A stretch of DNA of 64,000 nucleotides from NCBI RefSeq assembly GCF_031954525.1, contig NZ_CP134867.1, positions 3,782,001 to 3,846,000 on the forward strand. The letters run 5' to 3'. Made by a program: the position numbers and the translations under genes. The notes under the pieces are model-generated. The model did no database searches and was not told the DNA's origin. It saw nothing but the letters and a program-made list of their open reading frames with translations. The stretch is from Dyella sp. BiH032 (GTDB taxonomy: Bacteria > Pseudomonadota > Gammaproteobacteria > Xanthomonadales > Rhodanobacteraceae). Shown piece after piece: positions 27,189-40,264 of the stretch. Each line of letters opens with the position of its first letter. Positions within the stretch are counted from its first letter, which is position 1.

Positions 27189-28306
27189 GGCGGTGTCAAT
27201 CTAGAAGTGCATCATCGATGGCCTGAGCGAGGTCATCGTGCCCCATGGCACGCATGAACATCTCCGCCGGACAGTGGTAGCCCAAGGTGGCTCGGGGCCG
27301 AAGGTTCATCTCCTGAGCGATGGCATCCAGCGCTCGCTGGCTATGCACGGACAGATCGGTGCCTTTAGGGAGGTACTGCCGCAGCAGGCCGTTGGTGTTT
27401 TCGCAGATGCCCCGCTGCCAGGGGCTGCGCGGATCGGCGAAATAAATGCTCAAGCCGGTACGTTCGGACAAGGTCTTGTACAGCGCCATTTCCTTGCCCT
27501 GGTCATAGGTCAGTGTCTGGCGAAGCTCCGGCGGCACGCCCTGGAAGGCGCGACTGAAGCCCTCCAGCGCCTCCTGGGCCGAACACCCCTTCATCTTGAC
27601 CAGCTTCAGGAACAAAGTGCGTCGATCCACCAGCACCCCCACCGACGATCGGTTACGCGCCCCCTTGAGGAAGTCGCCTTCCCAATGGTCTGGTAACAGG
27701 CGCTCGTTGGCCTCCGGCGGGCGGTCATGAATACTCGGCAGATCCTGCATGCGGCCGCGCCGGTTCGCCCCTTGGCCACGCGGACGGCGTGCGCACTTGT
27801 GTTGGCGCAGCAAGGCCACCAGCTCACGCCGCAGTTCGCCACGCGGCATGGCATAAATCGCGGTGTAGATCGTCTCATGGGACACGTGTTTGGCCGGCTC
27901 GTCAGGATGCTGCCGGCGCAGTGTGCGGCTCACTTCTTGCGGTGACCAGCGGCGCGCTAACAGCTGGCGCACCAGGGGCCACAAGGCCCCATCACGATGT
28001 AGCTTGCGCCGTCGGCGTGCCTTGCGCGCGAGCCGTCGAGCCCGCGCACCGGCACGGCGGGCGTCATAGCCAAGTGTCGGACGACCCATGCGCGGACGCT
28101 CCGCCGGTTCGCGGTGCCCATTACGCGCCAATTCCCGGGAAATCGTGCTAGCCGAACGGCCTAGCAGCCGTGCCAGCTGCCGAGCGCTCTCGCCGCGTGC
28201 CTTGCCCACCATGATCGCGCCCCGTTCTTCGGCGCTCAGATGGCTGTAATGCTGTCCCATGCATCACCGTGTCGTGGGGGTGGTGCACTTGATGTTAGAG
28301 ACCGCC
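27189..28306 (-). mobile_element. IS30-family insertion sequence, complete (1118 bp)
   Basis: The ends are imperfect inverted repeats: GGCGGTGTCAATCTAGAAGTGC on the left, split here as GGCGGTGTCAATC and TAGAAGTGC, against GGCGGTCTCTAACATCAAGTGC on the right (read inward as GGCGGTCTCTAAC and ATCAAGTGC), about 16 of 22 matching. A TTA occurs on both sides (27186-27188 and 28307-28309), a 3-bp target duplication as IS30 elements make. It encodes one intact transposase and interrupts a dispersed hairpin element, so the site of insertion is known to the base. Confidence 0.92.
27196..28260 (-). CDS. IS30-family transposase
   Basis: 354 residues, intact. The N-terminal helix-turn-helix region is YSHLSAEERGAIMVGKARGE, then RQLARLLGRSASTISRELAR. 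The catalytic DDE residues lie in DHWEGDFLKG, LTYDQGKEMALY, and PWQRGICENTNGLLRQYLP, the IS30 spacing. It cuts and joins the IS ends. The TGA lies inside the left inverted repeat (27196-27198), leaving no room for another gene. No frameshift or loss of motif is visible, so the element may still be active. Confidence 0.96.
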   Translation of the reverse strand: MGQHYSHLSAEERGAIMVGKARGESARQLARLLGRSASTISRELARNGHREPAERPRMGRPTLGYDARRAGARARRLARKARRRRKLHRDGALWPLVRQLLARRWSPQEVSRTLRRQHPDEPAKHVSHETIYTAIYAMPRGELRRELVALLRQHKCARRPRGQGANRRGRMQDLPSIHDRPPEANERLLPDHWEGDFLKGARNRSSVGVLVDRRTLFLKLVKMKGCSAQEALEGFSRAFQGVPPELRQTLTYDQGKEMALYKTLSERTGLSIYFADPRSPWQRGICENTNGLLRQYLPKGTDLSVHSQRALDAIAQEMNLRPRATLGYHCPAEMFMRAMGHDDLAQAIDDALLD

Positions 28307-28502: not shown

Positions 28503-29765
28503 CTACGGCCTCGATGACGGGTGCCTCACCTGCCCCACCCCGCGCACCACAAAACGCTCCACCGTAAGCGCCTCCGCCCCCATCGGCCCATACGCATGCA
28601 AACGCGTCGTAGAAATACCGATCTCGGCGCCGAGCCCCAACTCCCCGCCATCGCTGAAACGCGACGAAGCATTCACCATCACCACCGCCGAACGGATACC
28701 GCGCACGAAGCGGCGCGCTGCATCCACGTCGCCCGTCGCAATCACTTCGGTATGGTCCGAACCGTAGCGGCGGATATGCGCCAGCGCGTCCTCCAGATCG
28801 TCCACGATGCGCACGGCGAGAATCAGATCGAGATACTCGGCCGCATAATCGGCCTCGTCCGCCGCCTTCATCGCCGGCACCAGCGCGCGGCTGCGCTCGC
28901 AGCCGCGCAATTCCACCTGCCGGCGGCCCAGGGCGTCGGCGGCGCGCGGCAGGAATTCGGTGGCGATGTCCTTGTGCACCAGCAACGTCTCTAGCGCATT
29001 GCACACGCCGGGGCGCGAGGTCTTGCCGTCCACCAGCAGGTCCAGCGCCAGGGACGGGTCGGCCGCGCGGTCCACGTAAAGGTGGCACACGCCCTTGTAG
29101 TGCTTGATCACCGGCACGCGCGCATGCTCGGCCACGAAACGGATCAGGCCTTCGCCACCGCGCGGGATGGCGAGGTCGACGATGTCGGTCAGCTGAAGCA
29201 GCTCCACCATGGCTTCGCGGCTCAGGTCCGTGATCAGCGTGAGCGCCGCGTCGGGCACGCCGTGCGCGGCCAGCGCGCTGCATAGCAGGCGCGCGATCGC
29301 GGTGTTGGAATGCACGGCCTCCGAGCCCCCACGCAGGATCACGCCGTTGCCGGCCATGAGGCACAGCGCGGCGGCGTCCGCGGTGACATTGGGGCGCGCT
29401 TCGTAAATCATCGCGATCACGCCGAGCGGCACGCGCACCCGCTCGATCTGCAGGCCGTTCGGGCGCGTCTCGCGACGGGTGACCACGCCGACGGGATCGG
29501 GCAACTGTGCCACCTCGCGCAGCGCGGCAACGATGCCGGCGACGCGCGCCTCGTCCAGGCGCAGGCGATCGAGCATGGCGCCCTGCACGCCTTTATCCCT
29601 GGCTGCAGCCATGTCCCGCGCATTCGCTTGCAATACCTCGGCGGTGCCGGCATGCAGGGCCTCCGCCATTGCGCGCAGCAGCGCACGCTTGGCTTCGGTA
29701 TCCAATTCGGCCATGACCAGGGCCGCGTCGCGGCAGGCCAGCGCCTGGGTTCGCATCTCGCTCAT
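28503..29765 (-). CDS. proA: Glutamate-5-semialdehyde dehydrogenase (gamma-glutamyl phosphate reductase)
   Basis: 420 residues from the ATG at 29765, which overlaps the proB stop (ATGA). The sequence has the aldehyde dehydrogenase-like fold with [32 protein letters not shown], the catalytic Cys region in [20 protein letters not shown], and [20 protein letters not shown] near the C-terminus. It reduces gamma-glutamyl phosphate with NADPH in proline synthesis. It is the last gene of the twelve-gene arg/pro array. Confidence 0.96.
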
Positions 29766-30898
29766 CGATTCGTCTCCGCCAGGACGACCAGGTCGTCCCG
29801 ATGCACCACTTCCGCGCCGTAGCTGTAACCCAGCACGGCGTCGATCTCGCTGCTGTGCCGGCCCGCCAGGCGGCGCACCTCGGCCACGCCGTACTGGCAC
29901 AGCCCGCGCGCCACCGGATGCCGCGCCGCATCCACGATCTCCACCATGTCGCCGCGATGGAATTCACCCTCGATGCCCACGATGCCGCCGGGCAGCAGCG
30001 AAGCGCGTCCGCCGGCGAGTGCGCGCGCGGCGCCGTCGTCCACCTGGATGCGCCCCGGCGCCGCCGGCGCGTGGCGAAGCCAGTACTTGCGCGCCTGCAT
30101 GCGGCTGCGGGGCGCCTCGAACAGCGTGCCGTGCAGGCAGTCTTCGGCAAGCGCGGCCACGGTCTGTGCGTTGCGGCCATCGAACAGCACCGTGGGAATG
30201 CCGGCCGCGCCGGCTTTCACCGCCGCCTCCAGCTTGGTGCGCATGCCGCCGGTGCCGACGCTGCTGCCGCTGCCGCCGGCCATCGCCATCACCTCCGGCG
30301 TCAGTTCGGGCACGCGATCGATCGGCACCGCGTTCGGATTACGCCGGGGATCGGCGTCGTAAAGCGCGTCGATGTCCGAAGCGATCAGCAGCAGATCCGC
30401 GTCGACCAAGGCGGCGACGATGGCAGCGAGGTTGTCGTTGTCGCCGAGCTTGAGCTCGTCCACCGCCACGGTGTCATTCTCGTTGATCACCGGCAGCACG
30501 CTCAGGCGCAGCAGTTCGCGCAGCGTGGCGCGCGCATTGAGATAGCGGCGGCGGTGGCGCAGGTCGTCGTGGGTCAGCAGAACCTGGGCGACCGGGCGTT
30601 CCGACAGCGACTGCCACAGCGCGATCATCGGCGCCTGCCCCAGCGCGGCGAGCGCCTGCCGCGCGGCGAGGTCGTCGCCGGCACGCTGGCGCAGCAGTGC
30701 GCGGCCGGCGGCGACGGCGCCGGAGGACACCAGCACCAGCTGGCGCCCGTGGGCATGAGCCTGAGCGATGAACGCCGCGAGCGCTTCGGCGTGGCGCGGC
30801 GTCAGGCCGCCGCCGTCGGCGGCCAGCAGGTTGCTGCCGACCTTGAGCACGGCGCGCCGCCACGACGGCAGGCTTTGCGCGGGCAGGCGCTCAGCCAT
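29762..30898 (-). CDS. proB: Glutamate 5-kinase
   Basis: 378 residues from the ATG at 30898. The amino-acid kinase domain shows [53 protein letters not shown] and [22 protein letters not shown]-terminal PUA domain begins around residue 280 ([13 protein letters not shown]). It phosphorylates glutamate as the first committed step to proline, forming a complex with ProA in many bacteria. The start lies inside the end of the cupin gene (8-bp overlap), and the stop overlaps proA. Confidence 0.96.
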
Positions 30899-31238
30899 CG
30901 ACCGCCTCCCGGTCGCCATGGCTCTTGGGCGAGGAGACGACCACGAAGCGGACGTCCGCGGCCGATTCGTTGCGCATCTGGTGCGCCGAACCCGGTGGCA
31001 CGTGCAGCCCCTGGCGCGGACCGAGCGCATGCGCCACGCCATCGAGTTCCAGCACCGCTTCACCCTCCAGCACATAGAAGAACTGGCGGGCACGTACGTG
31101 GCGATGGCGCACTTCGGCGGTGCCGGGCGGCATGCGCTCCTCGATCACGCTGAGGTCGTCCCCTTGCAGGAGGTGCCAGCCGTCGCACTGCCGGCCCCAG
31201 GTGTAATGCGGTGCGTTGGCGGTGCTGACGGCGCTCAT
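30891..31238 (-). CDS. Small cupin-domain protein
   Basis: 115 residues forming a single cupin barrel. The metal motif is RHRHVRARQFFYVLEGEAVL (two His and a Gln/Glu), and the second motif is PPGSAHQMRN with the third His. Single-domain cupins bind a metal and act as sugar isomerases, dioxygenases or sensors; nothing in the sequence decides which. It begins 10 bp after argH and its end overlaps proB, so it belongs to the same transcript and may touch arginine or proline metabolism. Confidence 0.85.
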   Translation of the reverse strand: MSAVSTANAPHYTWGRQCDGWHLLQGDDLSVIEERMPPGTAEVRHRHVRARQFFYVLEGEAVLELDGVAHALGPRQGLHVPPGSAHQMRNESAADVRFVVVSSPKSHGDREAVDG

Positions 31239-31248
31239 TGGCCTGGCC

Positions 31249-32544
31249 TCAGTGATCGAGCGCGGCGAGCCGCGCCGTCAGCTCGTCCAGCCGCAGGTCG
31301 TGGCCCGCGCCGGGCGACACACGCGCAGCGAGGCTGCCTTCGGGCGTGCGGCCTTCGCCGGCCGAAGCCGCAGTCTCCGCCGCCGCGCGGTAGGCATCGC
31401 GGAACGGCACGCCGGCGGCGGCCTGTTCGATCGCCACGTCGGTGGCGTACATCGCCGGCTCGATCGCCGCGCGCATGGCCGCCTCATTCCACTCCATCCG
31501 CGCCAGCAGGTCCGGCACCAGCTCCAGCGCGGCCAGACCGTGGCGGCAACCATGGAACAGCGAGCCCTTGGAGAACTGCAGGTCGCGCTGGTAGCCCGAG
31601 GGCAGCGACAGCAGCTGTTCGATCTCGGTGCGCGCGGCGGCGACGCTGGCGTAGCTCGCGCGCAGCAGCTCCACCACGTCGGGGTTGCGCTTGTTGGGCA
31701 TGATCGAACTGCCGGTGGTGTACTCCGACGGCAGCTTCACGAAACCGAATTCGGCGGTGGTGAACAGCGACAGGTCCCAGGCGAGCCGACGCACGTCCAG
31801 CAGCGCGGCGGCGATCGCTTCCAATACGGCCATTTCGAACTTGCCGCGCGACAGCTGCGCATAGATCGGCGACACCTGCATGCGCGCGAAGCCCAGTGCG
31901 CGCGTGGTGTGCTCGCGGTCCAGCTTCAGGTTGACGCCATAGCCCGCGGCGGTGCCGAGCGGGTTGCAGTCGATCAGCGCCATGGTCTGGCGCGCGCGCA
32001 GCGCATTGTCGATGGAGCCTTCGGCGAAGCCGGCGAACCACATGGCGGTGGACGACACCACCGCGCGCTGGATGTGGGTGTAGCCGGGCATCGGCACGGC
32101 CGGCTGCGCGGCGCGCGCGAGGCAGACTTCCGCGATGGCGCGACAGTGGCGTTCCAGCGCGGCCAGCTGGTCCTTCAGCCACAGGCGCGTGGCGACCAGG
32201 ATCTGGTCGTTGCGGCTGCGCCCCGTATGCACGCGGCGCCCGGCGTCGCCGAGGCGTTCGGTCAGGCGCGCCTCGATGGCGGAATGGCCGTCCTCGTAGC
32301 GTTCGTCCAGCACAAAACGGCCGGCCTGGAAATCCTCCGCCAGGACATCCAGTTCCCGCTTCAGCGCGGCGGCTTCGTCGGCGCTGACCACGCCGATGTT
32401 GGCAAGGCCTTCCACGTGCGCCTTGCTGGCGGTGATGTCGTGCAGGAAGAACTCGCGGTCCAGCACGACGTCGTCGCCGGCGAGGAAACGCATGATCTTG
32501 GCGTCGATCTGGATGCCGGACTTCTGCCAGAGAGGTTGGGTCAT
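31249..32544 (-). CDS. argH: Argininosuccinate lyase
   Basis: 431 residues from the ATG at 32544 (preceded by CAGGAC); an upstream start would add ten residues. Family signatures: [29 protein letters not shown], and the fumarase/ASL signature [19 protein letters not shown] with the catalytic loop Ser. It splits argininosuccinate into arginine and fumarate, the last step of arginine synthesis, in the cytoplasm as a tetramer. The C-terminal tail is somewhat short and rich in Ala, but active-site regions are complete. Confidence 0.97.
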
Positions 32545-32589
32545 GGGGGTGTCCTGAAAACGTGTAGCAGACAACGTGACGCGCGCGCG

Positions 32590-33549
32590 TCAGGCGTCCA
32601 GCGGGATGGCGGTGCACTCGTCCACGCCGATCGCGCGGTTGATGTTCTGCATGGCCTGGGTGGCGGCGCCCTTGAGCAGGTTGTCGAGGGTGGCGACCAC
32701 CACCACGCGCTTGCCGTCCACCGAGACGGCGAAGCCGCCTACCTCGGCGTGGTGCTTGTGCGCGATGTGGCTGACCCACGGCGCCTCGTCCACCACTTTC
32801 ACGAGCTTCTCGCCTTCGTAGGCATGGCGAAAGCGCTGCAGGATGTCTTCGCGCTTCATCGGACGCACGAGATAGAGATTCGTGGTGACGGTGAGCCCGC
32901 GGAAGTGCGGCGCGACGTGGGGCATGAATTCCACCGGCACGCCAAGATGGCGGCTAGCCTCCTTCTCATGTGTGTGACCGGTGAGCGAATACGGCATCAG
33001 GTTGTCGCGCAGCTTTTCCGGGTCGTTCTTGTCCGACGGCGTGGTGCCGGCGCCGGAGTAGCCGGACACGCCGAAGCTCACCGGCGGTGCCGCCAGCATG
33101 TCCTTCAGCGGCGCGATGGAGAGCTGGATCGCGGTCGCATAGCAACCGGGATTGCTGATGCGTTTCTCTCCCCGCCATTTGCCGCGGGTCAGCTCGGGCA
33201 ACCCGTAGTACCAGCGCTCGTCGAAACGGTAGTCGGCGGAAAGGTCCAGGAGCAGCGTGTCGGGCTTCGCCGCGTCGATCGCTTCGACGTACGGCGCCGC
33301 CTTGCCGTTCGGTAAGGCCAGCACCACCACGTCCGCGCCTTGCGCGGCGACCGCGGCAGGATCGAGGCTGGCGTAGCGCAGCTCGCCGGGGAAGCCGTCC
33401 ACGTGGTCGGCCACGCGCTGGCCGTCCAGTTCGCGGGACGAAACGAAGCTCAGCTCCAAGGCCGGGTGCGCGGCGATCAGGCGGATCAGCTCCGCGCCGG
33501 TATGGCCGCGTGCGCCGACGATGCCAATGGTCTTCTTGTCGTTACTCAT
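32590..33549 (-). CDS. argC: N-acetyl-gamma-glutamyl-phosphate reductase
   Basis: 319 residues. The NADP-binding start is [20 protein letters not shown], and the catalytic Cys sits in [38 protein letters not shown] and [18 protein letters not shown] complete the substrate domain. It reduces N-acetylglutamyl phosphate to the semialdehyde. The ATG is one base after the argB stop (TGA-C-ATG), a strong sign of coupling. The C-terminus ends with [20 protein letters not shown], which is normal for the family. Confidence 0.97.
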
Positions 33550-33550
33550 G

Positions 33551-34867
33551 TCAGTCCACCAGGGTCGCGGGCCGGGTCGCGCAGTGCGCGACGCAGCGCT
33601 CGATCTCGCCGAAGTTCTTCAACCCGTACCAGAACACCTTCCAGCGTTCCTGCTTGAAGCAGCCGTCCGATTCGGCGTAGTAGAAGATGTTGACCTGGTT
33701 GCCGTGGCGCGAACGCCAGAACAGCTGCGGGTTCTCGTCGCGCATCACCTGCCACACGGCACGGCCCAGGCCCTCGCCCTGCGCGTCGTCCAGCACGGCG
33801 AACTTGTCGAGATACGGCAGGCCGTCTTCCCAGGTCAGGATCATCGCGGCGCGATAGTTTTCGCTCACGTAGATGCGATAGGGCTTGGTGCGTGCGAAGT
33901 AGTCCGGCACCACCTTGCGGCCGAAGCTCGACTCGATCAGCCCGCGCATGCGTTCCTGGTCGATGCCGTCCCACGATTCGAAGCGCTGCACCTTCTCGCC
34001 TCGGCGCACCAGCGTGCCGGAGCCCTTGTGGGTAAACAGCTCCTTAGCCAGCTCGGACGGACGCGTGATCGACACCGACGAGGTCAGCGGCAGGCTCGAC
34101 AGCAGATCGGCGATCTGCTCGATCTTCACGCGCATGCCGCCGTTGATCCACGGCTGCTGCATGAGGTGGTCGTACTCGGTGCTGAGGTTGATCGAGTCGA
34201 TGATCCGCCCCTGGTCATCCAGCAGGCCGCCGGTGCCGGTGAGGAACACGATCTTGTACGGCTGCAGCACACGCACCAGCTCGTTGGCGGCGAAGTCCGC
34301 ATTGATGTTGAGGATCTGGCCTTCCTCGGTCTCGCCCAGGCTGGCGATCACCGGAATAGAGCCGGCGCGCAGGCTGGCCTCGATGGGCGCGAGGTTGATG
34401 CTGGTGACCTTGCCCACCAGACCGTAGGTGTCGCGGTCCAGGTATTCGGAGGTGAACACGCCGGAAGGCACCGACGTCGCGCGCGTATCCATCTCCTGCA
34501 GCGCCTCGACCAGGCGCAGGTTCTGCGCCTGGAAGACCTTGCGCACGATCGCCAGCGCCCTGGGCGAGGTCACGCGAAGGCCGTTGACGGTCTGCTTCTC
34601 GATGCCGGCGGCGGAGAGCTCCTCGTCCAGCTGCGGGCCGGCCCCGTGCAGGACGATCGGCGTCAAGCCGACCTGCTGCAGGAACGTCAGCGACGACGTA
34701 AGCGCCGGCAGGTCGTCGCGCAGCACCGCGCCACCGACCTTCACTACCGCGAAGCGCTTGGCATCGAGCTGCGAGAAGCGCTTGAGGTACTGCTGGATTT
34801 CCTTGGTGCTGCCCATGCTCGACAGCAGCCGAACGATGGTCTTGCGAGTGTGCTTATGCGCTTCCAC
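33551..34867 (-). CDS. argB: Bifunctional N-acetylglutamate kinase / N-acetylglutamate synthase
   Basis: 438 residues from GTG 34867, chosen because the first residues ([15 protein letters not shown]) match the start I recall for Xanthomonas homologues; ATG 34816 is the alternative. The first ~285 residues are an amino-acid kinase domain ([53 protein letters not shown]). The last ~150 are a GNAT-type acetyltransferase ([39 protein letters not shown]). This is the vertebrate-like NAGS-K fusion known from Xanthomonas: one protein makes and then phosphorylates N-acetylglutamate. The start lies within the end of argE'. Confidence 0.94.
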
Positions 34868-35969
34868 GGTTGACGATCCGGTAAATGGTTTGTGCGTAAT
34901 GGTCGAGCTGTTCGAGCGATACCCATTCGTCCGCGGCATGCGCCTGGGCGATGTCGCCGGGGCCGTAGACGAAGGAGATGTAGCCGGCGGCGGAGAACAG
35001 CGCCGCCTCGGTCCAGAAGTTCACGGCATTGCCGACGGGAATGCCAAGCTCGTCGGCCAGGTCGCGGGCGGCCAGGCGGCGGGTTTCCGCCGTGGCGGTG
35101 TCGCCGGCCGGCAGCGAATCGCCGCGGAAGGTTTCGCCGAACTCGACAGGGTGCGGTTCCACCAGCGTGCGGAACGTTTCCAGCATCTGGTCCGCATCCA
35201 TCGAAGGCAGCGGGCGGAAGCCGAAGCGCACGTCCGCGGTCGGCGCGATGACATTGGCCTTGATGCCGCCCTCGACCTTGCCGATGTTGAAGCGCAGGCC
35301 GGTCAGGCCGCCGAAGCGCTCGTGCGCCTGCTTCTCTACGTAGTCCAGCGCGGCCGTGCCCCAGCGCACCGCCTGGTGCAGCGCACTGTCGGACGGCTTC
35401 TGCTCGCCGGACGCGTGGCCGGCCTTGCCGCTGAAACGCATCTGCACCGAATGGATGCCGCGGTGCGCCAGCACGGCCTCACCCTTGGTGGGCTCGGCGA
35501 CGATCACGGCTTCGTAGTCGTGCACGCCCTGCTCCGCCTGTCCCTTCAAGAAGCCGGCGATGCAGCGCGCGTCGTTGGCTTCTTCGTCGGTGGAAAGCAG
35601 CAGCGCCATGTCGCCCTGGGTCGCATTGGCGACGGCGAGCAGCGCGGCGGCCGCGCCCTTGATGTCGCAGGCGCCCAGGCCGATGGCGCGGTCGCTTTCG
35701 ACGCGCAGCACGTGCGGGTCGGCGCTCCAATGCGGCGAATCGGGCACCGTGTCCAGGTGCACATTGAACAGGTACTTCGGCTTGCCGCGCACGGCGTAGA
35801 GATTGACCGCGCCGGCGCCGAAGTCGGTGACGGTGACGTCGAAACCGGCGAGATGCTCGCGCAGGTAGTCGAAGATACCGCCGGTGCCGATCTCGCGCGG
35901 GGGATTGCGCGTGTCGTGGCTGACCAGTGCCCGGAGATGCCTGAGGGTGTCGTCGAGTAGTTGGCTCAT
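34854..35969 (-). CDS. N-acetyl-L-citrulline deacetylase (ArgE')
   Basis: 371 residues from ATG 35969; an ATG at 36008 overlaps the previous stop and could add 13 polar residues, but relatives begin with the [16 protein letters not shown] helix. It is an M20 metallopeptidase: [20 protein letters not shown] (His, Asp), [13 protein letters not shown] (bridging Asp), [14 protein letters not shown] (catalytic Glu pair), [14 protein letters not shown], and [20 protein letters not shown] with the last His. In Xanthomonadales this paralogue removes acetate from N-acetylcitrulline, the step after N-acetylornithine carbamoylation. Placement beside argF' and argG agrees. Confidence 0.92.
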
Positions 35970-36004
35970 GAGGTCCGTCTTTGTCTTTGTGTTTTCCGGG
36001 GATG

Positions 36005-36442
36005 TCATCGTCGGGCGGACTGGTAGATGCCCGGCTTGTAGATTTCCATCAGAGTGTCCGGGTTATGCGGCGGAGTGAATCCATAACGCGCGTAAAGCGC
36101 ATGGGCGTCGAAGGTGGCGAGGGTGAAGCGGCGCAAGCCCTGCAACTGGGGATGCGCCATCACCGCCTCGACCACGGCCTTGCTGTAGCCCTGCCCGCGG
36201 TACGGGGGCAGGACGAACACGTCGACCAGGTTGGCGAACGTGGCGAAGTCGGAAATGACCCGCGCGAACGCCACCTGGGCCTGGCCGAGATAGCCGCCGA
36301 AGCACAGCGAATGCTCGATGGACTTGCGCACCGTATCGAACGAAATCCCCTTCGCCCAGCTGGAGCCGGTCGAGAGGAAGTCATGGATCAGGGCAAGGTC
36401 CAGCTCGCTCTTTTCCGTACTGATGCGCAAGGTCTCGCTCAT
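36005..36442 (-). CDS. GNAT-family acetyltransferase in the arginine array
   Basis: 145 residues with a full GNAT core: AFARVISDFATFANLVDVFV, the acetyl-CoA loop LPPYRGQGYSKAVVEAVMAH, and RRFTLATFDAHALYARYGFT. It starts 5 bp after argG and ends just before argE', so it is firmly inside the operon. Relatives in Xanthomonas arg clusters are also found at this position. It could acetylate an arginine intermediate or protect against its accumulation, but no substrate can be read from the sequence. Confidence 0.9.
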   Translation of the reverse strand: MSETLRISTEKSELDLALIHDFLSTGSSWAKGISFDTVRKSIEHSLCFGGYLGQAQVAFARVISDFATFANLVDVFVLPPYRGQGYSKAVVEAVMAHPQLQGLRRFTLATFDAHALYARYGFTPPHNPDTLMEIYKPGIYQSARR

Positions 36443-36447
36443 GCCGC

Positions 36448-37644
36448 TCAGCCCTTGCGGTTCACTTCGGCCCACAGGGTGCTGCTCATGCCGAACAGCT
36501 TGATGAAGCCCTCGGCCTCGGCCACGCCCCAGTCGGCGGACTGCGCATAGGTGGCGCCCTTGGCGTTGAGGATGTGCGGCGAGCGCACTTCCACTGCAGT
36601 CACCTGGGCGCCCGAGGTTTCCAGCACCACTTCGCCGTTGACCTGCTGCTGGCTGGAGGCGAGGAAGGCTTCGAGGTCGGTCTTGATCGGATCGTGGAAG
36701 AAACCTTCGTAGACCACCTCTACCCACTTGCGCGCGATCTCGGGCTTGAAACGGTTCTGCTGCTTGGTCAGCACGGCCTCTTCCAGCGCGCGGTGCGCGG
36801 CCAGCAGGGAGATCAGGCCGGGGGCTTCGTACACGATGCGACCCTTCAGGCCGATGGTGGTGTCGCCGGTGTACATGCCGCGGCCCACGCCGTAGGGCGC
36901 GAACAGTTCGTTGAGCTTGGCCAGGATCTTGGCGCCCGGCAGCTTCTGGCCGTTGAGCGACACGGCCTCGCCCTGCTCGAACGCGAGGGCCACGCTGAGC
37001 TTTTCGGACGGCCATTCGGCGCGCGGCTTGCACCAGCCGCGCGCGCCTTCGCCCGGCGCCTTCCACTGGTCGATCTCGCCGCCGGACAGCGTCACGCCCA
37101 GCAGGTTCTCGTTGATGGTGTAGCTCTTCTGCTTGGCGCGCACGGGGAAGCCACGCTCTTCCAGATAGGCCTGCTCGTAAGCGCGGGTCTGCGTGTGTTC
37201 CTTCTGGATCTCGCGGATCGGCGCCACGATCTCGTAGTCGCCCAGCGCCTTCACGGCCAGGTCGAAACGCACCTGGTCGTTGCCCATGCCGGTGCAGCCG
37301 TGCGCGATCGCGCGGGTGCCCACTTCGGCGCAGCGCTTGATAGCGGCGTCGACGATCAGATAGCGGTCGGACACCAGCAGCGGGTACTGGCCCTGGTAGC
37401 CCTCGCCGGCCCACACGAACGGCTTGACGAAGCCTTCCCAGATGGCCGGGCCGCCGTCGACGGTGACGTGGCTGGCTACGCCCAGCTCCTTGGCGCGCGC
37501 TTCGATGTAGGCGCGCTCCTCGGCGTCCACGCCGCCGGTGTCGGCGAATACGGTGTGCACGTTCCAGCCGCGCTCCTTCAGGTAGGGCACGCAGAAGCTG
37601 GTGTCGAGGCCGCCGGAGAAGGCGAGGACGATGTCTTTGCTCAT
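36448..37644 (-). CDS. argG: Argininosuccinate synthase
   Basis: 398 residues. The ATP pyrophosphatase motif is [20 protein letters not shown] at the N-terminus, then [37 protein letters not shown], and [20 protein letters not shown]. It joins citrulline and aspartate with ATP. In this pathway its citrulline comes from deacetylation of N-acetylcitrulline rather than from ornithine transcarbamylase. The segment [20 protein letters not shown] marks the shorter ArgG subtype. It starts 34 bp after osmC. Confidence 0.97.
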
Positions 37645-37678
37645 GGCTTTTCGGGGATCCTGGGTGGAAAGGAAACGG

Positions 37679-38146
37679 TCAGGCGGAAACGACGATGCGC
37701 GGTTCGCAGCGCACCGGGAAATTCATGGAATTGGCGATGAAACAGGCGTGGTGCGCGTCTGCGTGCAGCGATTCGGCTTTCGCCGCGTCACCGGCGGCGA
37801 TGGTGACTTCGGGGCGCAATACCACTTCCGTGAAGCGGCCGCCCTTGGCATCGACGACCAGCAGGCCTTCGGCACGATCCACGTACTGGGTGACCACCAC
37901 GCCCGCGTCTGCCGCCAGATGCAGGTACCACAGCATGTGGCAGGCCGAGAGCGAGGCGACCAGCATGTCTTCGGGATTGTGCTTGGCGGCATCGCCGCGG
38001 AACGCCGCGTCGGACGAGCCGGCGATCACCGGCCGGCCCGCCACGCGGATCTCGTGGTCGCGGCCGTAGCCTTGGTACGTACGCGTGCCGTCGCCGCGGT
38101 TGCCGGTCCACACGACGTCGACCGGATAACGATGTTCATGCGCCAT
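37679..38146 (-). CDS. OsmC-family protein
   Basis: 155 residues. OsmC-type landmarks are [20 protein letters not shown] (one redox Cys) and [20 protein letters not shown] (second Cys), giving a Cys pair able to reduce organic hydroperoxides. The start overlaps the end of the paiB-like gene by 11 bases. Its presence in an arginine operon is unusual; a role in thiol protection is likely from the family, whereas any link to arginine is not evident. Confidence 0.9.
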
Positions 38147-38765
38147 CGGTCAGCTCCTTGGTTGCGGTCATCAGGTCAGCCAGGTCGCGGTCATGGCGAT
38201 GCGCGCGCTCGCGCAGACCTTCGACCACGCCGGCGCGATTGCGGGCGGGATGGTTCTGGCTCAGCTTGAACTTGGCCTCGATGCGTTCGATGGCGATGTC
38301 CAGTCCGACGATCGCGCCGAGCATCTTGTCCACGTGGTCGGCCGGCGCGTCGTCGACGCGCCATGGCTGGGCCTGCGCGGCTTCGTGACGGTCGGTAAGC
38401 CGATCGAGCAGAGCGCGCAGCCAGGCCTTGTCCTCGACCACGCGCAGGGTGCCGCGCACGTGCACTACCGCGTAATTCCAGGTGGGGACTTCACGGCCGG
38501 TCTCGTGCTTGCTGGGATACCAATTGGGGCTGACGTAGGCGTCGGGCCCCTGGAAGATCGCCAGCACCTCGGTACCACCCGCTTCGGCCAGCTCGTTGAC
38601 GCGTGCGACGTGACCGTGGAGCCGCCCATCGACCAGTTCCAGCGGAAGGTGATTGGCAGTGACGCCCGTCTCGCCCGTCGTGACGACAGTGGCGAACGGA
38701 TAACTGCGTATCAGCGCCCGCAGGGCGTCTTCGCGCGTTTCCTGGAACGAACGAGGCAGGTACAC
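38136..38765 (-). CDS. PaiB-type FMN-binding protein
   Basis: 209 residues. Family segments: MYLPRSFQETREDALRALIR at the start, FATVVTTGETGVTANHLPLE, HGHVARVNELAEAGGTEVLA, then FQGPDAYVSPNWYPSK and VPTWNYAVVHVRGTLRV, all part of the FMN-binding split barrel. Bacillus PaiB was described as a negative regulator of sporulation genes; most relatives are probably flavin- or heme-binding proteins rather than DNA-binding. It starts 10 bp after argF' and overlaps osmC, so it is in the arginine transcript. Confidence 0.9.
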   Translation of the reverse strand: MYLPRSFQETREDALRALIRSYPFATVVTTGETGVTANHLPLELVDGRLHGHVARVNELAEAGGTEVLAIFQGPDAYVSPNWYPSKHETGREVPTWNYAVVHVRGTLRVVEDKAWLRALLDRLTDRHEAAQAQPWRVDDAPADHVDKMLGAIVGLDIAIERIEAKFKLSQNHPARNRAGVVEGLRERAHRHDRDLADLMTATKELTDGA

Positions 38766-38775
38766 GGGCGTGCGC

Positions 38776-39783
38776 TCAGCGCTGGCCGAGCAGCGAGGCC
38801 ATTACCGCCTTCTGCACGTGCAGGCGGTTTTCCGCCTCGTCGATGGCGATGCAGTACGGCGCATCCATGACGCCGTCGGTAGCCTTCACGTTGCGGCGCA
38901 GCGGCAGGCAATGGCTGAACAGGCCGTTGTGGGTGAGCGCCATCTTCTGCTCGTCGACAATGAAGTGCTTGTGCGCGTCGCGGATCGGCTTCTCCTGTTC
39001 CCAGCGGCCGAAAAACGGCAGCGCGCCCCAGCTCTTGGCGTACACCACTTCGGCGCCGGTGTAGGCTTCCTCGATGTCATGGCTGACCCGCAGCGAGCCG
39101 CCGTTGGCCTTCGCATTCTCGTAGCCGGCCTGCATGTAGCGCTCGTCCAGCACGTAGTCCGGCGTGGGGCACAGCAAGGTCACGTCCATGCCCATCTTGG
39201 TGGCGATCAGCAGCGCCGAGTTGGCCACCGCGGTGTTGAGCGGCTTGGGGTGATAGGTCCAGGTGAGTACGTACTTCTTGTTCTGCAGATCGCCCAGGTG
39301 TTCCTTCATCGCCATCGCATGCGCCAGCTCCTGGCAGGGATGGGTGATCGTTTCCATGTTGATCACCGGCACGGTCGCGTACTGGGCGAAAGCCTTGATG
39401 ACGCGGTCCTCGCGGTCCACCGACCAGTCCTGGAACTTGGGGAAGGCGCGCACGGCGATCAGGTCGACGTAGCGGCTGAGCACGCGCGCGACCTCGGCGA
39501 TGTGCTCCTCGGTATCGCCATCCATGACGGTGCCGACGTCGAATTCGATCGGCCATGCGTCCTTGCCGGGCGCCAGCACGATCGCGTGGCCGCCGAGATG
39601 GAAGGCGCCCAGCTCGAAGCTGGTGCGGGTGCGCATGGAGGGATTGAAGAACAGCAGCGCCACCGACTTGCCGGCCAGTTGCTGTCCACGGGGGGAGCGC
39701 TTGAACGCGGCCGCCTGGTCGAGCAGCGCGTCGATCTCGGCGCGGGTGTAATCCTGAGTGGTGAGAAAGTGGCGAAGCGTCAT
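38776..39783 (-). CDS. argF': N-acetylornithine carbamoyltransferase (AOTCase)
   Basis: 335 residues. The carbamoyl phosphate loop is FFNPSMRTRTSFELGAFHLG, followed by a catalytic HPCQELAHAMAMKEHLG. The feature that separates it from ornithine transcarbamylase is Glu92 in VMDGDTEEHIAE together with the PIEFDVGTVM insertion; Lys300 in LRRNVKATDGV corresponds to the modified active-site Lys in the Xanthomonas enzyme. It carbamoylates N-acetylornithine to N-acetylcitrulline. It is first in the twelve-gene array and is preceded by a leader ORF and terminator. Confidence 0.95.
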   Translation of the reverse strand: MTLRHFLTTQDYTRAEIDALLDQAAAFKRSPRGQQLAGKSVALLFFNPSMRTRTSFELGAFHLGGHAIVLAPGKDAWPIEFDVGTVMDGDTEEHIAEVARVLSRYVDLIAVRAFPKFQDWSVDREDRVIKAFAQYATVPVINMETITHPCQELAHAMAMKEHLGDLQNKKYVLTWTYHPKPLNTAVANSALLIATKMGMDVTLLCPTPDYVLDERYMQAGYENAKANGGSLRVSHDIEEAYTGAEVVYAKSWGALPFFGRWEQEKPIRDAHKHFIVDEQKMALTHNGLFSHCLPLRRNVKATDGVMDAPYCIAIDEAENRLHVQKAVMASLLGQR

Positions 39784-39903: not shown

Positions 39904-39930
39904 AAAAAAACCCGGCGCGATGGCCGGGTT
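39904..39930 (-). terminator. Intrinsic terminator in the argF' leader (attenuator)
   Basis: On the minus strand AACCCGGC (39930-39923) and GCCGGGTT (39916-39909) form an 8-bp stem with a 6-base loop, followed by seven Ts (A-run 39904-39910). It lies 120 bp before the argF' ATG and behind a short ORF, so it acts inside the leader rather than at a gene end. Confidence 0.88.
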
Positions 39931-39966
39931 CTTTGTCGTCGATGCGCATGAAATGCGTGCGACAGC

Positions 39967-40071
39967 CTACCCGGCCGTATGTCGGACCAGCGGTCGGCGC
40001 GCACGCGACGTCATGCCAGCGGCCATGCGGGCGCTGGTGAGTACGGTGGCGGTATAGACGGCTGCGGACAT
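39967..40071 (-). CDS. Putative arginine-rich leader peptide of the arg operon
   Basis: A 34-residue ORF from ATG 40071 to TAG 39967-39969. It begins MSAAVYTATVLTSARMAAG and then has MTSRARRPLVRHTAG: four of ten residues at positions 21-30 are Arg (codons CGT, CGC, CGA, CGA), plus one at 15. The ribosome site is weak (GGAACC, 4-9 bases before). Stop codon and terminator are separated by 36 bases, as in classical amino-acid attenuators. Arg-rich shadow ORFs are common in GC-rich DNA, so translation must be shown. No relative comes to my mind. Confidence 0.5.
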   Translation of the reverse strand: MSAAVYTATVLTSARMAAGMTSRARRPLVRHTAG

Positions 40072-40264
40072 GCGGGTTCCGGGTAGGTGAACCGGCATGA
40101 TGACGGGATTTCCGCTGCTGTGCAACAGGCGCGGCGACCCGGCCCGGGTTGAGGAAGAGGAGCGGCAGGCGCATTGCCGGGCGGCTACCGGCCGTGGCGA
40201 ATGGCGGAGGCGGCCTCCCCGGCATACAAAGCCTCTCCGCGCTGCCAACTTCCTATGCCGCAAC

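Follow-up and report, generated by a model that had tools for sequence, protein, structure and literature searches.

Does the arginine-rich reading frame in front of argF', together with the hairpin that follows it, control transcription of the arginine genes in this genome? Classical amino-acid attenuators precede the trp, his, leu, ilv, thr, and phe operons, and a preliminary description of the locus had proposed a device of this type for arginine. The window, i.e. the complete stretch of 64,000 nucleotides analyzed here, belongs to a genome of 5.25 Mb; among the best 80 of 389 loci of N-acetylornithine carbamoyltransferase (AOTCase, encoded by argF'), the closest named ones are from Dyella and share 95% protein identity. 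Our comparisons support the proposal in the main: Arg codons are kept, and the pairings B:C and C:D (Table 1) show paired changes. We regard the locus as a probable ribosome-mediated transcription attenuator of the arginine operon and assign a probability of about 0.85 to this reading of the sequences.

Layout of the locus and its operon

On the minus strand, a promoter-like pair of boxes is followed by the leader ORF, by segments B, C, and D, and by argF'. The ORF has 34 codons, as previously described; it begins with ATG and ends with the stop codon TAG (MSAAVYTATVLTSARMAAGMTSRARRPLVRHTAG). The gap of 36 bases assigned to the interval between ORF and terminator is right within the choice of the stem end. 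Arginines occupy positions 15, 23, 25, 26, and 30 of the leader peptide.

Table 1. Features of the argF' leader region and the genes behind it (window coordinates).
Feature	Position	Strand	Basis
Candidate promoter TTGCAC-17-CATCAT	40097..40125	minus	motif kept in relatives
Leader ORF, 34 codons, stop TAG	39967..40071	minus	ORF list, conservation, codon-position bias
Peptide core G19-R26 plus P27 (GMTSRARRP)	39991..40017	minus	amino-acid invariance; R26 = CGA at 39996-39994
Putative protector hairpin, Arg-codon block (codons 22-26) paired with B	39965..40006	minus	RNAalifold consensus and duplex energies
Segment B (GGCCGGGTAGG), 5' half of the predicted antiterminator, spans the stop codon	39966..39976	minus	B/C/D comparison
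Segment C (ACCCGGCC), common to predicted antiterminator and terminator	39922..39929	minus	B/C/D comparison
Predicted intrinsic terminator C:D with T run	39905..39934	minus	terminator scan; D = 39916-39910
argF', N-acetylornithine carbamoyltransferase (AOTCase), first gene of the operon	38776..39783	minus	NCBIfam NF003384
Remaining putative operon	28503..38765	minus	domain matches; 10 genes behind argF'

Several sets of loci were used for comparison. An AOTCase scan of named genomes gave 389 confirmed loci, of which the best 80 were taken (L003-L082: Dyella, Frateuria, Rhodanobacter, Luteibacter, Fulvimonas, and unnamed bins); L064, which has no upstream region, was left out, so that 79 loci and the window constitute a set of 80 Rhodanobacteraceae sequences. 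Families within the order are coded f1 to f12, f1 being that of the window. When 299 genomes of the order were searched with the leader peptide, 165 matched at E-values up to 0.1; an AOTCase was found in 268 at E-values up to 1e-60. From these peptide matches, 80 places were fetched, weak ones included. Due to near-identical loci across both sets, the 160 sequences represent 155 distinct leaders.

The promoter-like pattern TTGNRN-N17-CATNAT occurs in 77 of the 80 Rhodanobacteraceae sequences, with a spacer of 17 in all 77, and lies 24-25 nt 5' of the leader ATG in 71 of them. A stricter promoter scan of this region of the window found no promoter at the candidate position. Transcription would be expected to start near 40090. 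The promoter-like site kept upstream of the ORF in these 77 sequences speaks for the proposed attenuator.

The argF' product scored 606.6 bits with NF003384 (cut-off 288). Behind argF' follow, in this order, FMN_bind_2, OsmC, argG, a GNAT-like gene (a label that rests on our reading of the translation), argE, argB, argC, argH, a proB-like gene (AA_kinase plus PUA), and a proA-like gene (aldehyde dehydrogenase family). Between 39905 and 28362 of the minus strand there is one weak terminator-like match with a stem of 5 pairs, at 32468-32453 within argH; the next site is located after the operon at 28362-28339. Genes of this arrangement would probably be transcribed as one unit of 11 genes, rather than the twelve counted before; the proB-like and the proA-like gene are included. 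Directly behind the operon (27196-28260), the window contains a transposase-like gene with HTH_38 and integrase-core domains.

Conservation of the leader peptide

GMTSRARR was found in all 80 Rhodanobacteraceae sequences (79 from the best 80 of 389 AOTCase loci, plus the window), as were the leader and the intrinsic terminator C:D. Since the 79 named loci were picked by AOTCase alone, the presence of the leader in these cases is a true test; the core was located there by means of the pattern M-T-x-R-A-R-R-P, which all loci with the region matched. Of the four clustered arginines (positions 23, 25, 26, and 30) emphasized in the preliminary description, all are present in the window, and the first three are kept in 80 of 80 sequences; R30 is not. 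Each of the 80 fetched peptide matches sits upstream of an AOTCase gene and carries the core; note that this core is shared partly by selection, because the peptide search chose these loci. Across the 155 distinct leaders, no amino acid varies from G19 to R26, and positions 23, 25, and 26 are always arginine. Two AOTCase-containing genomes of f2, G073 and G261, escaped the peptide search; their leaders have a serine at position 19 (L203, L204). These belong to seven further f2/f4 loci picked by AOTCase; MTSRARR is present in all seven, and serine replaces G19 in L203, L204, and L206. Two peculiarities were noted: genome G253 has three leader-peptide matches, and the contig of L009 begins with a C run and adapter-like sequence joined to the leader.

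Database searches gave no name to the peptide. For 36 leaders, no Pfam family matched at E-values up to 1, PF10940 (SpeFL) being among those searched, and NCBIfam returned no match for the leader peptide. Rfam covariance models (T-box, riboswitch, and other leaders) had no match in the window at gathering thresholds, and the 59 homologues found in databases are either unnamed or annotated in terms no more specific than hypothetical protein. In 369 genomes of the class, five of which belong to f1 and f2 of this order, a leader profile matched strongly in these five alone; the other matches have E-values above 5e-4 and look like chance. A profile of this kind would miss Arg-run leaders of different sequence.

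In order to assess selection, raw pN and pS values were computed for 1500 random pairs, in each of which a member of the Rhodanobacteraceae set was compared with a fetched locus (the 80 fetched loci include some of f1). These values are partly saturated, and the fetched loci had been picked by peptide. For G19-R26, pN was 0 with a pS of 0.336, and for A14-A18 the values were 0.151 and 0.492. The N-terminal codons (0.642 and 0.582) and codons 28-32 (0.702 and 0.715) have pN/pS ratios of about 1, i.e. both ends of the leader evolve freely. About the first 190 codons of AOTCase gave 0.237 and 0.465; judged from these numbers, the leader core is under stricter selection than the enzyme. Among 71 distinct Rhodanobacteraceae leaders, the variable ORF columns at codon positions 1, 2, and 3 numbered 5, 6, and 20, and the minor-letter counts were 59, 46, and 271; codons 28-32, L009, L082, and sequences with another stop position were left out of this count. 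Both the third-position variation and pN/pS argue that selection maintains the ORF for its coding capacity.

Codon choice in the core

R26 is encoded by CGA in 154 of the 155 distinct leaders (L159 has CGC), a codon that accounts for 1.3-1.6% of Arg codons in the AOTCase genes of the same loci. At R23, CGT is used in 107 of 155 leaders versus an AOTCase background of 6-13%, and neither CGG nor AGA nor AGG occurs at R23, R25, or R26 of any of these leaders. Five of the seven further f2/f4 loci likewise have CGA at R26, whereas L206 and L208 have CGT. According to the accessible part of a study using a his-leader assay, CGA is read slower than CGU and CGC (PMC4046918). A pause on Arg-tRNA would need just such a codon constraint in addition to that on the peptide; an RNA-level need for the same letters could be another cause of the codon constraint. 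The MTSRARR motif, invariant in the f1-f4 loci examined, and the fixed rare CGA suggest a tuned pause, perhaps aided by the nascent chain.

A bias was also seen at Ser22 (window 40014-39991 and relatives), which is TCG in 151 of 155 leaders compared with 48% TCG among AOTCase Ser codons; in the Xanthomonas-like set described below, no pairing was found that would explain it.

Terminator and antiterminator

Scanning 801 bases for terminators yielded five terminator-like matches, with 0.4 expected; the leader terminator is among them, three others are one upstream hairpin, and one is the leader hairpin read on the other strand. By script, a terminator was detected in all 160 loci, each stem having at least 5 G-C pairs. 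The best B:C pairing comprises at least 7 pairs in 151 of the 160; it has only 5-6 pairs in L075, L142, L144, L148, L165, L177, L183, L188, and L194. Segments B/C/D are of the type GCCGGG/CCCGGC/GCCGGG in 93 loci and GCTGGG/CCCAGC/GCTGGG in 43; these two matched types make up 136 of 160. B has its standard form in 151 loci, the nine others being L075, L142, L165, L177, L183, L188, L191, L192, and L194. In these 151, the varying B:C pair is Watson-Crick in 145 cases, G-U in five, and a mismatch in one (C-A in L144). When B was permuted among sequences, 86 Watson-Crick pairs resulted on average and 103 at most, versus the 145 observed; relatedness remains in this permutation. On a quick tree of 108 of the 160 sequences (thinned), 4 changes were counted in B and 7 in C and D, not enough for an independent-pairs covariation test to reach 0.05, and the RNAalifold covariation term for 44 Rhodanobacteraceae sequences is only -0.38. 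What the comparison provides is a predicted antiterminator that shares the 5' arm of the terminator and varies in a compensatory manner, in few independent events.

The location of B is similarly preserved: 39 nt separate its start from the core ATG in 141 of 151 loci. The stop codon lies anywhere from 12 nt before the start of B to 6 nt after it, and in six loci (L143, L148, L157, L171, L179, L187) it precedes B by 2-12 nt. In these six, B is thus kept as RNA and not as Ala-Gly-stop codons. The expectation that the position of the stop codon is conserved therefore has to be restated: B stays, and the stop moves in some relatives. Between B and C (39963-39935), the RNAalifold consensus contains a small helix GTCG:CGAC, whose first three pairs are kept in 43-44 of 44 Rhodanobacteraceae sequences and which is compatible with both the antiterminator and the terminator.

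These data allow us to judge a rival explanation, namely that the hairpin is constitutive or terminates the upstream gene and that the ORF is a chance reading frame. Intergenic terminators are common, and in the window genome the leader frame is open for 95 codons before the core. However, the open frame upstream of the core ranges from 24 to 106 codons among the loci while the core is invariant, the upstream gene has a terminator-like site of its own at 40294-40271, and codon-position bias, pN/pS, and the conservation of B:C would be left unexplained. We consider this explanation very improbable.

The protector of segment B

In the preliminary description, B could alternatively pair with a segment A upstream of the ORF (40087-40079). 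All pairings proposed among A, B, C, and D are present in the window, where A:B has 9 bp and 1 of 30 shuffles was as good. B:C and C:D are kept in relatives; A is not conserved (in the 80 Rhodanobacteraceae sequences, the mean fraction of shuffles at least as good was 0.49), and we rejected it as a pairing partner for B. Among 73 further loci (L130-L202), 47 have a promoter-like pair TTGNNN-17/18-NANNNT whose -10-like box ends only 6-9 nt from the leader ATG. The transcript would then contain hardly any RNA 5' of the ORF, and the leader ORF may be leaderless in Xanthomonas-like bacteria and other families.

B is probably protected by the Arg-codon block itself, a pairing that stands out clearly only in Rhodanobacteraceae. 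For 44 sequences of this family, RNAalifold predicted the terminator and a hairpin of codons 22-26 with B (columns 9-20 with 38-50); 3 of 25 consensus pairs were changed on both sides. Compared with shuffled spacers, the duplex of the Arg block with B plus spacer had a mean z of -1.82 in the 80 Rhodanobacteraceae loci, -1.13 in a mixed set of 52 loci, and a weak -0.44 in the Xanthomonas-like set, which consists of 28 loci from f2 and similar ones. In the latter set, keeping B occupied may be left to the terminating ribosome alone. Family f2 includes genomes whose AOTCase is nearly identical to solved N-acetylornithine carbamoyltransferases (L174), which we take to be those of Xanthomonas campestris.

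Computed folds of the window RNA gave -22.2 kcal/mol for B to C, -17.8 kcal/mol for C to D, and -30.8 kcal/mol for core to C with the Arg block on B. For the RNA beyond a stalled ribosome, the terminator (-33.0 kcal/mol) is predicted with D, and the antiterminator (-27.0 kcal/mol) if the RNA ends before D. As the terminator is favored once D is present, the switch must depend on the order of synthesis, with the antiterminator forming first.

Outer families and ArgR

A set of 30 argF' loci from f2 and f4-f12 was inspected in addition. An Arg-rich leader ORF followed by a terminator was found in 24: f2 3/3, f4 4/5 (the remaining locus, L217, begins inside the gene), f5 2/2, f6 0/1, f7 2/2, f8 6/6, f9 3/3, f10 3/5, f11 1/1, and f12 0/2. 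MTSRARR is retained in f4; f5 and f7-f11 have unrelated peptides with Arg runs or clusters, among them NPRRRRV, ELRRRRT, ALRRRRR, and VVVRRRRP. In 10 of the 17 leaders of f5 and f7-f11 (L211, L212, L216, L218, L219, L222, L227, L228, L229, L230), at most 10 of 200 shuffles matched the B:C pairing, and none of 200 did in L216, L218, and L227, although L227 forms the pairing from quite different letters. The pairing did not exceed shuffles in the other seven, where 184 (L213), 199 (L215), 170 (L221), 48 (L223), 23 (L224), 19 (L214), and 12 (L220) of 200 were as good; the script took no useful B in L213, L215, and L221. Seven f2/f4 rows were likewise no better than shuffles (29-144 of 200 as good); the script used the wrong ORF in L205 and L207 and an over-long start in many rows. 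By the same script, the last Arg codon of the densest stretch lies 17-21 nt from B in 8 of 17 outer leaders and 7-16 nt in 9; the count is shorter in f9 and f11 because a further Arg follows the Arg run. Different letters forming the same pairing at about the same place, as in L227, L228, and L230, are the best evidence that sequence comparison offers for the mechanism.

L213 has an Arg-rich leader and a terminator, and no antiterminator segment was found in it. L221 contains the leader region twice in tandem with N between, probably an assembly artefact.

The outer families also bear on the idea that the leader encodes a conserved microprotein with a function in trans, the attenuator being incidental. 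The strong conservation of the core would fit; on the other hand, both ends of the leader evolve freely, unrelated peptides occupy the same place in the outer families, and neither Pfam nor NCBIfam has a match. Among the explanations considered here, this is the least probable.

Within the order, the arginine repressor ArgR (PF02863) turned up in f12 alone, in 8 of the 101 genomes searched; 8 of 14 control genomes, including E. coli, were positive. The two f12 argF loci inspected share 39-40% identity with the query and lack a leader. No family of this sample showed both ArgR and the attenuator. For f6 and part of f10, neither of the two was found: by script, the AOTCase loci L210 (f6), L225, and L226 (f10) are without terminator or Arg leader, and their arginine control may differ.

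Proposed mechanism

The leader, its codons, the pairings, their conservation, and their spacing can be read directly from the sequences. For translation, stalling, termination, and the arginine response, the trp- and his-type attenuators serve as models. RNA polymerase would start near 40090, with a ribosome following it on the leader ORF. A shortage of charged tRNA-Arg should stall this ribosome on CGU-GCG-CGC-CGA (R23-R26), where it would cover the Arg block that otherwise pairs with B without reaching B itself, whose first base lies 20-21 nt past the start of CGA. The freed B would pair with C before D is made; the terminator could then not form, and the polymerase would enter argF' and the later genes. 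If arginine is plentiful, the ribosome would reach the stop codon inside B and cover this segment, C:D would form, and transcription would stop. With no ribosome on the leader, the Arg block would pair with B, again permitting C:D. Three observations favor charged tRNA-Arg as the signal: the constraint on Arg codons, the direction in which the switch works, and the leaders of the outer families.

A textbook attenuator needs no invariant peptide, and the fixed peptide may shape the pause. One could even assume that the peptide is the sensor: MTSRARR would stall the ribosome in the exit tunnel and operate the same B/C/D switch in answer to a metabolite (arginine, ornithine, or N-acetylornithine), tRNA charging being secondary or irrelevant. 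The amino-acid invariance beyond the Arg codons (pN 0 with pS 0.34 over G19-R26) points in this direction, as do the Arg-containing leader SpeFL/orf34 of Salmonella, whose gene responds to ornithine and arginine according to the part of the report consulted (PMC6386406), and a faint resemblance of SRARRP to RAxP arrest motifs in the section available of PMC10987492. Yet the fixed codon choice (CGA, no CGG) would be left unexplained, and the outer families retain Arg runs, not the peptide. Moreover, as a stall frees B and switches the operon on, a stall caused by high arginine would have the wrong sign. A pure peptide sensor is therefore improbable in our view.

A combination is conceivable for f1-f4, though less likely than not: an Arg-codon attenuator that has acquired an invariant nascent chain (A-x-[GS]-M-T-S-R-A-R-R, in most cases with P as the next residue), whose passage through the exit tunnel would slow the ribosome exactly at CGA. 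The nascent chain and tRNA charging would then act on one stall, perhaps setting a threshold or adding a metabolite input. It is a similarly speculative part of this idea that the plain Arg runs of the outer families do the job without a fixed peptide. The reading we prefer remains the attenuator governed by charged tRNA-Arg.

Relation to known systems

Proteobacterial attenuators are reportedly treated by Vitreschak et al. 2004. With the classical attenuators the locus shares a leader ORF with codons for the pathway product, predicted alternative antiterminator and terminator structures with a putative protector, and a stop codon in or near the switching segment; it differs in that the amino acid is arginine, the core peptide is fixed in the f1-f4 loci examined, and the last regulatory codon is nearly always the rare CGA. 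In the part available of a 2005 paper, attenuators are named for histidine, threonine, and phenylalanine, and T-boxes for tyrosine and arginine (PMC1262725).

The comparison with other leader peptides relies on the accessible portions of the respective reports. Salmonella orf34/SpeFL, upstream of speF, is likewise a leader ORF with a conserved peptide and two Arg codons that sense arginine; in contrast, it controls ornithine decarboxylase via Rho, RNase G, and access to the ribosome-binding site instead of an intrinsic terminator (PMC6386406). The carA leader of Pseudomonas combines a gammaproteobacterial leader peptide with possible attenuation of a gene of arginine and pyrimidine synthesis, but the gene is another one, attenuation is ascribed there to pyrimidines, and arginine acts separately on transcription (PMC4997734). 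In Staphylococcus aureus, the leader peptide rbfL senses arginine through rare Arg codons, but blocks the translation start of a regulator instead of attenuating biosynthetic transcription (PMC13009471). Unlike the RAPP-like arrest peptides SecM, ApdA, and ApdP, the core SRARRP is without a C-terminal motif of the R-A-P/G-P type, as compared with the motif list seen in PMC10987492. In the open-access literature (subscription journals and preprints were outside the scope), we found no report of an arginine attenuator in this order, and no relevant open-access paper contains the leader peptide strings; there was one unrelated match.

If the proposed mechanism is true, arginine joins the amino acids under classical attenuation. 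With its fixed peptide and fixed rare codon, the leader would allow one to test how an attenuator is set jointly by codon choice and the nascent chain. In this genome, the pro genes behind the arg genes would be under the same signal. For Xanthomonas-like bacteria and most of the sampled families, in which ArgR was not found, the leader would constitute a regulator of the arginine operon.
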